Part shown: in pieces, positions 4,932 through 9,493 of the stretch
Layout of the letters: each line of letters opens with the position of its first letter
How positions within the stretch are numbered: position 1 is the first letter of the stretch
NCBI GenBank assembly: GCA_015522845.1
Contig: WALL01000021.1
Location: forward strand, 1 to 46,666
Reading direction: 5' to 3'
Source of the DNA: Nanobdellati archaeon
GTDB taxonomy: Archaea; B1Sed10-29; WALL01
Length of the DNA stretch: 46,666 nt
Notes under the pieces: generated by a model
What the model saw: the letters and a program-made list of their open reading frames with translations, nothing else
Databases searched by the model: none
Told to the model about the DNA's origin: nothing
Made by a program: the position numbers and the translations under genes

Positions 4932-6410
4932 GTGAGAAAAATGGCCGAGGAAAAGTTATTGAGGGAAACGTTCTCCGTATGCCCGGAATGTGGCAAGAAA
5001 ATACCTGCAAAGATCGTTGAAAGCGATGGGAAAGTCCTTATGCGGAAGCACTGTGACGAGCATGGGGACTTTGAGGATATATACTGGGGCAGTGCCAAGA
5101 CATATGCAGAATACATGAAATGGTTTTATACAGGGGATGGTGTCTCCAACCCAAATACAAAGTCCACAGGGAGCTGCCCTTATGACTGCGGGCTTTGCAG
5201 CAACCACAAGTCCCAGACAATTCTCTCGATTATAGATGTCACAAACCGGTGCAACTTTAACTGCCCAATTTGCTTTGCAAATGCGAACAAGGCAGGCTAT
5301 GTCTATGAGCCATCAAAGGAGCAGATAGAAGAGATGCTGGATATGCTTGCTTCGCAGAAGCCAAGCAGGAATTGGGTAGTCATGTTTTCTGGTGGGGAGC
5401 CAACTGTCAGGGATGACCTCCCCGAGCTGATAAAGATGGCCCGTGATAAGGAGTTCTTTGTCCTTATAGCAACCAATGGGAAGCGTATGGCAGAAGACAA
5501 GGCATTCTGCAAGAAAGTGGTGGATGCTGGGCTTGATATTGCTTACCTGCAGTTTGATGGCGTAACACCCGAGCCGTACATTGTAGCGCGCGGCTTTAAT
5601 GCATTTCCGCTAAAGACCAAGCTTCTCCAAAACTTCCGTGAGATTGGGTTTAAGGGGACAGTGCTTGTGCCAACTGTTGTTAAAGGTGTGAATGATGGGC
5701 AGGTTGGTGACATCATCCGGTTTGCATTCGACAACATAGATGTTGTGCGGGGGGTTAACTTCCAGCCCGTGTCCTTTGCTGGCAGGACAGACAAGAGCAA
5801 GCTTAAGGAGCGGAGAATAACAATACCTGACTTGATAGACAGGATTTCAGAGCAGACCAACGGCGACCTTTCGCAGGATGACTTTTACCCCATTCCTGTT
5901 TCCATCCCGCTAAGCAAGTTCCTTATGAAAAAAGGGCAGCCTTGGGAGCTTAGCGCACACCCAATGTGCGGCGCATCCAGCTACATTATAAAGACAAAAG
6001 AAGGGAAGCTCAAGTCCATACCCCAAATGGTCGACATTAAGAAGCTTATGGGCCTTTTGAAAGAAGCTAATGAGGGGAAGATAGGCAGGGCGCGGCTTGC
6101 AATGCAGCTGCCTGGGATAATGAAGCCTGGAAGCATGAGGTGGGGCGGTGCAAAGCTACTAAGCTGGATTAAGGGGGTTTTCTTTGGCGATGAAAATGTG
6201 AGGAACTTCCAGACGCCAGACATGCTTTTTATAGGCATGATGCATTTCCAGGACAAGTACAATTTAGACTTGGAGCGCCTTGAAAGGTGCATTGTGCATT
6301 ATGCAACGCCTGATAAAAGGATAATCCCGTTCTGCACATACAATAATTTCCACCGTGTTGGTGTGGAAAAGGACTTTTCAAGGCCGCTTAGCTCACCGCC
6401 CAAAGTGTGA
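4932..6410 (+). CDS. Radical SAM protein of the tetraether synthase (Tes)/MJ0619-like family
   Basis: N-terminal CPECGKK zinc-like motif, CPYDCGLCSNHKSQTILSIIDVTNRCNFNCPICFANANKAGYVYEP, then FSGGEPT; about 490 aa. Confidence 0.75.
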   Translation: MRKMAEEKLLRETFSVCPECGKKIPAKIVESDGKVLMRKHCDEHGDFEDIYWGSAKTYAEYMKWFYTGDGVSNPNTKSTGSCPYDCGLCSNHKSQTILSIIDVTNRCNFNCPICFANANKAGYVYEPSKEQIEEMLDMLASQKPSRNWVVMFSGGEPTVRDDLPELIKMARDKEFFVLIATNGKRMAEDKAFCKKVVDAGLDIAYLQFDGVTPEPYIVARGFNAFPLKTKLLQNFREIGFKGTVLVPTVVKGVNDGQVGDIIRFAFDNIDVVRGVNFQPVSFAGRTDKSKLKERRITIPDLIDRISEQTNGDLSQDDFYPIPVSIPLSKFLMKKGQPWELSAHPMCGASSYIIKTKEGKLKSIPQMVDIKKLMGLLKEANEGKIGRARLAMQLPGIMKPGSMRWGGAKLLSWIKGVFFGDENVRNFQTPDMLFIGMMHFQDKYNLDLERLERCIVHYATPDKRIIPFCTYNNFHRVGVEKDFSRPLSSPPKV

Positions 6411-7172: not shown

Positions 7173-7197
7173 GGGGGCATTTGCCCCCTAACTTTTT
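7172..7197 (+). terminator. Intrinsic-like terminator after hsp20
   Basis: AGGGGGC-ATTT-GCCCCCT stem followed by aacTTTTT. Confidence 0.55.
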
Positions 7198-7224
7198 ATA
7201 AGTAAGCTATGCTTATTTAGCACT

Positions 7225-8775
7225 ATGCCTGCTAGGAAAGAGTTTGTTGTTGCCGCTTATGTTATAAAGGGCAATAAAGTTCTGCTTGTCCACCACAAAA
7301 AGCTTGGCATGTGGCTGCCACCTGGTGGGCATATAGAGCAGTACGAGACACCGGAAGAAGCGGTTGTCCGTGAGGTAAAGGAGGAAACTGGCCTTAATGT
7401 TGAAGTAGTGCGGGAGGCGGGCGGGCATCCACGGACGAACGTTGAGATTCTTGCCCAGCCAAAGCATATACAGCTTGAGAACATTAAGGGCACCCATGAG
7501 CATATAGATCTGGTGTATGTCTGCAGGGTTACTGGGGGGAAGCTCTCCATAAACCACGAGGTGCATAGCGCACAGTTTTTTAGAATTGGGGAGATAGCTG
7601 TATTAGAGGGTGTGCCAGCCGATGTAAAGCACTATGCTCGGGTGTTCTTGCACAAGGAGACAGACAGGACAGCTTATGACCTACCGGTGTTTAGGGAGCT
7701 GGTCAGGGAAAACAAAGTTGACTTTTCAGGCATTTCGCTGTTGGTTATACAGCATCTTAAAAAGAATACGGTACAATTTATCAAGTTGCTAGGTGAGGCT
7801 GGCTTTAATGGCATTACAGTTATTGGGAAGCCTTACTCAATAGACAGAAGCGCAATGGCAGATATAAAAAGGTATGCCACTGTGCTTACCCCCTCTTTTC
7901 GGCAGATGGAAAGCTTAGAGGCAGTGGAGAAAGCGGTAAAGGCCACCAGCGGGAAATTTATATGCCTTGACCTTGGCGGCTATTTTACAAGGTACTTTGA
8001 TAAGCAGGGCACCCCTCCCGGGCTATTGGGGGTTGTTGAAGATACAAAGAATGGGATTTGGTTTGATAGGCAAAAGAAGTTTAGCTACCCTTTTTTTTCA
8101 GTTGCAAACTCAGAGCTGAAGAGCCATGCAGAAAGCTTTTTTGTGGCAAAGGCAATTGTGCGCAATATCGAGAATGTACTCATAAGCAGCTTTCAGGAAA
8201 CTTTAGCTGGGAAGTACGTGCTTGTGGTGGGCTATGGCACAATAGGAACGCACGTGGCAAGGATACTCCAGGCAAGCTCTAATGTTTGGGTTTATGACAT
8301 TGATCCAATTAGGCTGCTGCGCGCAAAAGTGAGTGGCTATGGGATTATCAGCGATTTGCTTGGCATCCATAAGTTTGATGTAATAATTGGGATCACTGGA
8401 AAAATTGCCATTAAGGAGGGGTTGAAGTATGCAAAAAATGGTGTGGTTCTTGTTAACGGCTCAACCCGGCAAATGGAATTTGACCGCAGCTCAATTAGGC
8501 AGCTGTCACGGAAGGCAATTAAAAAGAGGCAATTCACAAAATATGAGCTTTGGAACGGAAAAAATATTTACCTGCTTGCCGATGGCTACCCCATAAACTT
8601 TATGGGAACCGAGTCTGTCCCTGAGTTCATTTTGGACATGATATTCTCGGAAATGTTCCTTCTCTGCAAGATTCTGAAAGAGAGGGAAGTTAAGCCGGGG
8701 TTTTATCCAGTAGAAACAGCACATCCAGAGGTTGAGCAGGGGGTTGCAGAGAGGTGGCTGGATTATTGGGCATGA
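7225..8775 (+). CDS. NUDIX hydrolase fused to an adenosylhomocysteinase-like NAD-binding region
   Basis: NUDIX box GGHIEQYETPEEAVVREVKEETGL; C-terminal SAHH-like GVVEDTKNG, VVGYGTIGTHVARILQASSNVWVYDIDPIRLLRAKVSGYGI, DVIIGITGK, NGVVLVNGSTRQMEFD, IYLLADGYPINF. Confidence 0.75.
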   Translation: MPARKEFVVAAYVIKGNKVLLVHHKKLGMWLPPGGHIEQYETPEEAVVREVKEETGLNVEVVREAGGHPRTNVEILAQPKHIQLENIKGTHEHIDLVYVCRVTGGKLSINHEVHSAQFFRIGEIAVLEGVPADVKHYARVFLHKETDRTAYDLPVFRELVRENKVDFSGISLLVIQHLKKNTVQFIKLLGEAGFNGITVIGKPYSIDRSAMADIKRYATVLTPSFRQMESLEAVEKAVKATSGKFICLDLGGYFTRYFDKQGTPPGLLGVVEDTKNGIWFDRQKKFSYPFFSVANSELKSHAESFFVAKAIVRNIENVLISSFQETLAGKYVLVVGYGTIGTHVARILQASSNVWVYDIDPIRLLRAKVSGYGIISDLLGIHKFDVIIGITGKIAIKEGLKYAKNGVVLVNGSTRQMEFDRSSIRQLSRKAIKKRQFTKYELWNGKNIYLLADGYPINFMGTESVPEFILDMIFSEMFLLCKILKEREVKPGFYPVETAHPEVEQGVAERWLDYWA

Positions 8776-8797: not shown

Positions 8798-9493
8798 ATG
8801 ATTTGGGAATGGGATGGCAAGAGGAAGGAGTTTCGCTTTTCTAAGGAGCTGATCACTCCAGATGTGCGCACATATGAGCAGATGAAGCCAGTCCTTTATG
8901 ACCCTCTGGCAGATGCGCCTAGCGTGTTTTATTATATGTACCGTGGCCTAAGCCTTCCTGAAGATAAGGGGCTCTTTGCAAGCCAAAAAATACGATATGA
9001 TATAACTGTTATGCCTGCTGCAGCAATTGGCGGGGAATACATCAAGACAAAAGGGCATTTCCACCCAGTGAAAGGCGAACACAGTTACCCCGAGATTTAT
9101 GAGGTGCTTGCTGGTGAGGCTTATTACCTCCTCCAAAGCCGCAAGGAGCTGTTGGCAGCTCATGCAATCGCAGGCGATAAGGTAATTATCCCCCCAGACT
9201 ATGGGCATGTTACAATTAATCCGGGGGAGGGAACACTCGTCATGGGCAATTTGGTATCATCAGAGTTCAAGTCAGACTATGCCCCTTTCCTGAAGGGGCA
9301 TGGTGCTGCATTTTACCTGTTGGAGAGTGGCTGGGTTAAGAACCCTAACTACAAAGGGGTTTCCCTGCATGTGGGGCCATTGCATACCAAAAAGGTTTTC
9401 CTAAGGGGGGAGGGGGGCCTGTATTATCTCTTTAGGGAGAATCCAAAACGCTTTGCATTCTTGAATAACCCTAATTTTTACTTTGAAAAATAG
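8798..9493 (+). CDS. pgiA: Cupin-type (archaeal) glucose-6-phosphate isomerase
   Basis: TKGHFHPVKGEHSYPEIYEVLAGEAYYLLQ and IPPDYGHVTINPGEGTLVMGNLVS motifs. Confidence 0.88.
   Translation: MIWEWDGKRKEFRFSKELITPDVRTYEQMKPVLYDPLADAPSVFYYMYRGLSLPEDKGLFASQKIRYDITVMPAAAIGGEYIKTKGHFHPVKGEHSYPEIYEVLAGEAYYLLQSRKELLAAHAIAGDKVIIPPDYGHVTINPGEGTLVMGNLVSSEFKSDYAPFLKGHGAAFYLLESGWVKNPNYKGVSLHVGPLHTKKVFLRGEGGLYYLFRENPKRFAFLNNPNFYFEK

Follow-up and report, generated by a model that had tools for sequence, protein, structure and literature searches.

A conserved fusion of a Nudix domain with a SAHH-like module in a Nanobdellati archaeon and its relatives on plasmids and phage-like contigs

The fusion gene and its surroundings

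The DNA analyzed here (the window) is a 46,666-nucleotide contig, WALL01000021.1, from the assembly GCA_015522845.1 of a Nanobdellati archaeon (genome G000 below). At positions 7225–8775 of its forward strand lies one open reading frame of 516 codons without an internal stop, as the first-pass annotation had reported, and its product joins an N-terminal Nudix domain to a C-terminal module that resembles SAH hydrolase (SAHH) and is here called SAHL. The gene and its major parts are the following.

7225–8775, + strand: Nudix-SAHL fusion gene, 516 aa; stop codon TGA at 8773–8775
7246–7638, + strand: NUDIX domain, aa 8–138 (Pfam PF00293, E 6e-18), with a GxHxHIDLVY stretch inside it
7327–7395, + strand: Nudix box GX5EX7REUXEEXGU, aa 35–57, intact by direct reading
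7678–8772, + strand: SAHH-like (SAHL) module, aa 152–516, with substrate and NAD-binding domains (from ahcY, PDB and AlphaFold/Foldseek comparisons)

The cupin-type GPI gene that had been placed 22 bp beyond the fusion stop does start there, at 8798. On the other side, a GGGGGCA-TT-TGCCCCC hairpin can be seen by eye at 7173–7200 (+), directly 3′ of the Hsp20 stop, and is followed, again by eye, by CTTTTTATAAG about 28 bp 5′ of the ATG at 7225; these look like a terminator and then a TATA box for a leaderless archaeal gene. Farther upstream are a tetraether lipid synthase gene, tes (4932–6410, +; NF045702, 590 bits, cut-off 450), and, a few bases 5′ of it, a PadR-type regulator gene (PF03551; 4510–4926, +). 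A functional tie between the fusion and the GPI, Hsp20 or tetraether synthase gene was considered and rejected: none of the three recurs at the related loci described below, so their adjacency to the fusion is taken as incidental.

The Nudix half

The Nudix box that had been called canonical in the first reading is complete, and the domain around it scores 65.6 bits against the Pfam NUDIX model (cut-off 21.1). Its residues G35, E41, R49, E50, E53, E54 and G56 are invariant across all seven aligned Nudix domains. The nearest solved relatives are 1jrk/1k2e (phmmer against PDB chains, E 4e-16) and 3f6a. The best-scoring of these, the 1k2e-like Nudix proteins of Pyrobaculum aerophilum, have the Nudix box in common with the window protein but stand alone, whereas the window's Nudix domain is fused to SAHL; the P. 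aerophilum protein has no function assigned in PMC5389931. A BFVD fold search returned chiefly Nudix proteins, with SAHH absent, and in PADLOC the candidate Nudix model PDC-S07 was matched, together with weak E1–E2 matches over the Rossmann loop only.

The C-terminal half has a SAHH fold

The NAD-binding domain model AdoHcyase_NAD (PF00670) matches residues 326–459 with E 6e-15 and 56.1 bits (cut-off 27), and NCBIfam ahcY (TIGR00936) aligns over residues 152–495 with 105 bits, far under its cut-off of 497.6; the NCBIfam adenosylhomocysteinase models together cover about residues 152–509, all far under their own cut-offs. Pfam PF05221 has no match in the fusion protein or elsewhere in genome G000. 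Among PDB chains, phmmer matched SAHH over residues 145–507 (E 7e-23). An AlphaFold model for which five fusions were aligned (mean pLDDT 76.8, pTM 0.59) has SAHH as its best Foldseek match (E 6e-24, 22% identity), and all 50 of the PDB matches listed are SAHH or SAHH-like proteins, so that a full-length SAHH fold extends from about residue 150. The first-pass annotation had named a generic D-2-hydroxyacid dehydrogenase fold as the alternative. Such a Rossmann domain fused to Nudix is extremely improbable: the 2-Hacid_dh_C match is sub-threshold (18.9 bits over 34 residues, cut-off 25.1), whereas the SAHH match spans some 350 residues, and this fold is ruled out by the weak match together with the SAHH-only list from Foldseek.

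Active-site residues

SAHH-like motifs had been noticed in SAHH order, and they are present in that order, though several are altered: EDTKNG stands for EETTTG, NGSTR for N-x-GHF and SVP for GHP. Residues were mapped in an alignment of 18 SAHL and 14 canonical SAHH rows, with mammalian SAHH numbering. In mouse SAHH the 2′-OH is contacted by E156 and D190, the 3′-OH by T157 and K186, and the 5′-OH by H55, D131 and H301; the GHF gate that contains H301 is described as fully conserved among SAHHs (PMC4647836). The corresponding positions in the window are listed here.

7753–7755, + strand: H177, equivalent to H55; kept in 18 of 18 SAHL
8038–8055, + strand: EDTKNG (aa 272–277) in place of EETTTG; E155 and T157 (T274) kept, E156 changed to D
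8119–8133, + strand: K299 to E303, equivalent to K186 to D190, the 3′-OH and 2′-OH contacts (PMC4647836); the lysine is present in 18 of 18 SAHL
8230–8247, + strand: NAD loop GYGTIG (aa 336–341); GxGxxG in 18 of 18 SAHL
8296–8298, + strand: D358, at the end of beta-2, position of SAHH E243
8461–8469, + strand: STR (aa 413–415) in place of the GHF gate; H301 absent in 18 of 18 SAHL
8596–8598, + strand: N458, equivalent to N346; kept in 18 of 18 SAHL

The proposed check of SAHH catalytic residues gave a divided answer. With SAHH (AHCY; PF05221/PF00670, TIGR00936) the window protein shares the fold, the motif order, the NAD loop and H55, T157, K186 and N346, but it lacks D131 (L250 is at that position), N181, the GHF gate with H301, and H353, and it has a shorter C-terminus and the added N-terminal Nudix domain. 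This pattern extends to the other SAHL proteins. All 18 also keep E155, have alanine for N181, carry other residues in place of the GHF gate and lack H353; D131 is lost from 16, the exceptions being the Streptomyces plasmid loci L060 and L062. E156 is D in most of them, and an acid is found at or beside the D190 position throughout. The lysines K202 and K275 were considered as a phosphate-binding signature and dropped; they are invariant in five fused copies and lost in genome G248 (see below). By contrast, all 14 canonical rows have an intact gate and D131. From its position, D358 is expected to favor NAD over NADP.

The base pocket differs as well. Substrate fingerprints are HxTxE/Q for SAHH and HxExK for S-inosylhomocysteine (SIH) hydrolases (PMC13406329); the window has HLKKN (HxKxN), which is neither, and the fusions L023 and L024 have HxDxK, close to that of the SIH hydrolases. 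Since the pocket is unlike that of SAHH (T57/E59 are K/N or D/K, and H353 is lost), adenosine is not assumed to be the ligand. SAHL chains also lack a C-terminal segment that canonical SAHHs have, and because archaeal SAHHs are truncated at the C-terminus too (PMC13406329), this alone is not diagnostic; with N181 replaced by alanine, it is a reason not to take NAD affinity or hydride transfer for granted in SAHL.

Judged by its sequence, then, the window protein is not an SAH hydrolase. The human K426R SAHH, which keeps oxidation and loses 5′ hydrolysis (PMC12955632), separates the two steps, and with the 3′-OH residues kept and D131 and H301 gone, SAHL would have retained the redox half of the reaction and lost the hydrolytic half.

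SAHL is a separate clade

In tblastn searches against plasmids, the C-terminal module joins a large set of proteins annotated as adenosylhomocysteinase, NAD(P)-dependent oxidoreductase or hypothetical, and SAHL genes are scattered among plasmids, phage-like contigs, Patescibacteria and DPANN archaea. HMM scores separate the two groups: SAHL loci reach 277–479 with a SAHL model and no more than 105 with a canonical model, and canonical SAHH loci no more than 166 and at least 219, respectively. A fecal phage scaffold (L067), taken up as a SAHL candidate, was rejected because it scores as canonical SAHH. In a tree built from 18 SAHL rows and 15 that are canonical or canonical-like, from which a Simkania copy (L066, 137 on the SAHL model) was left out, the split between SAHL and canonical SAHH has 100/100 support; the root inside SAHL may lie at another place than in this tree, as the one alternative compared is not rejected (p-AU 0.23). 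SAHL is a SAHH-like clade apart from every canonical SAHH compared. This goes beyond the first-pass annotation: the SAHH part is, on sequence grounds, a member of a divergent clade of paralogues in which the residues for SAH hydrolysis are lost and those for 3′-OH redox chemistry are kept. The family is rare in archaea, and in a sample of 394 archaeal genomes only G000 and G092 rise above the canonical SAHH background (1e-112 versus 2e-47).

A Klebsiella ‘adenosylhomocysteinase’ gene beside cobT/cobS (L086, 6914–8023) is divergent from canonical SAHH (219 bits) and keeps the GH of the gate; it represents a further SAHH-like group.

Fusions and gene pairs elsewhere

With the C-terminal part as query, genome contigs yielded four loci, all of them full Nudix-SAHL fusions: L021 (bacterium AUK117), L022 (Micrarchaeota), L023 (Nanohaloarchaea; the same contig as G127) and L024 (DPANN KA24; the same contig as G092), with end-to-end identities to the window of 53, 48, 29 and 28%, respectively. 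A search in the phylum of L021’s genome added a more distant copy of 561 aa (L053, genome G704), whose neighbors read from the sequence as bS16, MnmA and AlaS and whose group reads as Patescibacteria. Six genomes, our own included, therefore carry the fusion; since five others have it, it is not an assembly accident. Gene neighbors differ between the more distant loci (L021–L024 and L053 compared). The Nudix-SAHL fusion is real, conserved and built from two known families. Its architecture, which had not been recognized at first, was not found in the literature searched either, and this is weak evidence of absence with narrow queries and few subscription journals covered.

The window and L021–L024 form one clade (98/93), which the G248 pair adjoins, and L053 is placed elsewhere, among bacterial SAHL. 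Forcing all six fusions into one clade was rejected (p-AU 0.002, a test limited by long branches). The fusion thus occupies two positions in the tree, on branches that include long ones.

The two genes are also found side by side, as the first-pass annotation did not foresee for either the pairs or the second fusion position. In G248, from the phylum of L022’s genome, a 379-aa SAHL gene is followed by a 156-aa Nudix gene with an 8-bp overlap; on a Streptomycetaceae plasmid (L058) a Nudix frame, frameshifted as read, lies 3′ of the SAHL gene; and on three phage-like IMG/VR contigs (L083–L085) SAHL is directly followed by a Nudix gene, which in L083 is a Pfam NUDIX match. The IMG/VR scans gave no match with the first alignments, and these three contigs were found with a wider alignment. 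By eye, L083 has an integrase-like ORF and L084 a serine-recombinase-like ORF.

Counting a locus as Nudix-linked when a Nudix domain is fused to the SAHL or SAHH gene or lies within 1.5 kb of it, 11 of 18 SAHL loci are linked and none of the canonical SAHH loci (at least 45); Fisher’s test gives p 5e-8, or 2e-7 with the window removed (10 of 17), figures that ignore kinship, the three phage-like contigs and the Streptomycetaceae plasmid being close kin. Parsimony on the tree needs three changes of the linked state. Several SAHL lineages have no adjacent Nudix gene (L060–L065), so the partner is not obligatory. Nevertheless, with two fusion positions in the tree and gene pairs in both archaea and bacteria, chance is hard to invoke: the link is not incidental, and relatedness among the loci weakens the Fisher figure.

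SAH handling in the host genomes

The archaeal assembly G000 (750 kb, 89.67% complete) has a bacterial-type SAM synthetase (PF02773) and a radical-SAM enzyme. Apart from the fusion, no SAHH-like gene, canonical SAHH included, was found in that incomplete assembly, nor was any match to a PNP/MTA-nucleosidase family; its congener G001 has a canonical SAHH. The gene content of G000 would suit a protein that, though divergent, truly hydrolyzes SAH or S-inosylhomocysteine and stands in for canonical SAHH, with Nudix acting on a by-product. SIH hydrolases, archaeal SAHHs with the HxExK fingerprint, share the fold, the archaeal setting and a changed base pocket, to which the HxDxK of L023 and L024 comes near. 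However, the window group has HxKxN, which fits neither fingerprint, and lacks D131 and the GHF gate with H301. In genome G102 the fusion coexists with a canonical SAHH; G103, which has the fusion, has no SAM synthetase match, and the sole match in G104 has an internal stop. Moreover, at 89.67% completeness the canonical gene may simply be missing from G000. We consider replacement of SAHH possible but decidedly unlikely.

A possible function of the fused halves

SAHH is commonly regarded as an enzyme with a single task. The widespread SAHL clade appears to keep only the first half of SAHH chemistry and to be tied to Nudix in archaea and bacteria. Our tentative preference, held at somewhat below even confidence, is for a two-enzyme nucleotide-processing module that couples Nudix diphosphate cleavage to NAD-linked 3′-OH redox chemistry without 5′ cleavage. 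The Nudix half would hydrolyze a nucleoside-diphosphate-X compound or a di- or triphosphate, and the NAD-bound SAHL half would oxidize or reduce a ribose 3′-OH, either on that product or on a nucleoside or nucleotide related to it, without the SAHH 4′,5′-elimination and the addition of water or thiol; together they might act on one specific nucleotide, or a conjugate of one, to salvage, detoxify or remodel it. We favor this because the Nudix box and NAD loop are intact, the 2′/3′-OH residues are kept or conservatively replaced and the 5′ residues are gone; because Nudix is fused in six genomes, overlapping in G248 and neighboring in the plasmid and three IMG/VR contigs; and because other SAHL genes lie in a nucleotide context, with orotate phosphoribosyltransferase, HD and Nudix genes in Staphylococcus and methyltransferase, phosphoribosyltransferase and HAD genes in Streptomyces. 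The original suggestion of nucleoside-conjugate salvage or sensing fits these data as a possibility.

The main rival, to which we give a lesser and rather modest probability, is a SAHL half that lacks catalytic activity and, by binding NAD(H) or a nucleoside, acts as a sensor to regulate its Nudix partner. By analogy, AHCYL1, a SAHH paralogue that has lost its activity and gained an N-terminal domain, acts as a regulator in animals, and the substitutions in AHCYL1/2 abolish SAH catalysis, leaving action through the added domain (PMC12955632); a reference title in PMC13406329 cites AHCYL1 as an SAH sensor. AHCYL1/AHCYL2 (IRBIT) resemble the window protein as SAHH paralogues with catalytic substitutions and an N-terminal addition, but here the addition is a Nudix domain with an intact catalytic box, the protein is prokaryotic and there is no IRBIT domain. 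Loss of D131, H301, H353 and N181 would agree with a silent domain, and allosteric coupling would fit a gene fusion. Yet even distant SAHL (25–30% identity) retain H55, T157, K186, N346 and the acid of the D190 position, beyond what a pure binding domain would need, and SAHL genes without adjacent Nudix are also found in biosynthesis-like operons.

If SAHL did keep only the first half of SAHH chemistry and is tied to Nudix, many genes now named adenosylhomocysteinase or NAD(P)-dependent oxidoreductase would need corrected annotation and should be left out of counts of methyl-cycle enzymes, and the single-chain fusion protein would allow a direct search for the substrate. A broader idea, which we regard as improbable, is that SAHL plus Nudix forms a mobile nucleotide-conversion module that makes or neutralizes a specific modified nucleotide such as a conflict signal, toxic analogue or defense metabolite: phage-like contigs and plasmids carry the module, it is fused in ultra-small archaea and Patescibacteria, and SAHL would be its 3′-oxidizing SAHH paralogue.

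Operons with unfused SAHL genes

The bacterial SAHH-like ‘NAD(P)-dependent oxidoreductases’ of S. epidermidis, L. plantarum, Streptomyces and Agrobacterium plasmids belong to the same SAHL clade, with the same kept residues and the same loss of H301 and D131 (D131 except in L060/L062), but they are unfused and lie in operons with HD, phosphoribosyltransferase, HAD, methyltransferase and transporter genes. On a 24.9-kb S. epidermidis plasmid (L059, 3578–11418) the operon contains SAHL, HD, orotate phosphoribosyltransferase and MFS genes as well as genes for an HpaB-type hydroxylase, a NUDIX protein, an M24 peptidase-like protein and a PLP enzyme; the Nudix gene is a few genes away from SAHL and not adjacent. 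This looks like a cluster for a nucleotide-type metabolite; production of 6-HAP was considered and set aside, as the literature found did not confirm it. Streptomyces plasmid clusters (L062, 7667–13969; L060, 7771–14068) have GNAT, SAHL, methyltransferase, phosphoribosyltransferase and HAD genes; their SAHL is 500 aa long with an extra N-terminal region, and the phosphoribosyltransferase is 650 aa. On a Lactiplantibacillus plasmid (L065, 8262–10068) a MFS gene is followed by an HD-domain gene that overlaps SAHL, and SAHL matches are found on about 40 Lactiplantibacillus plasmids like it.
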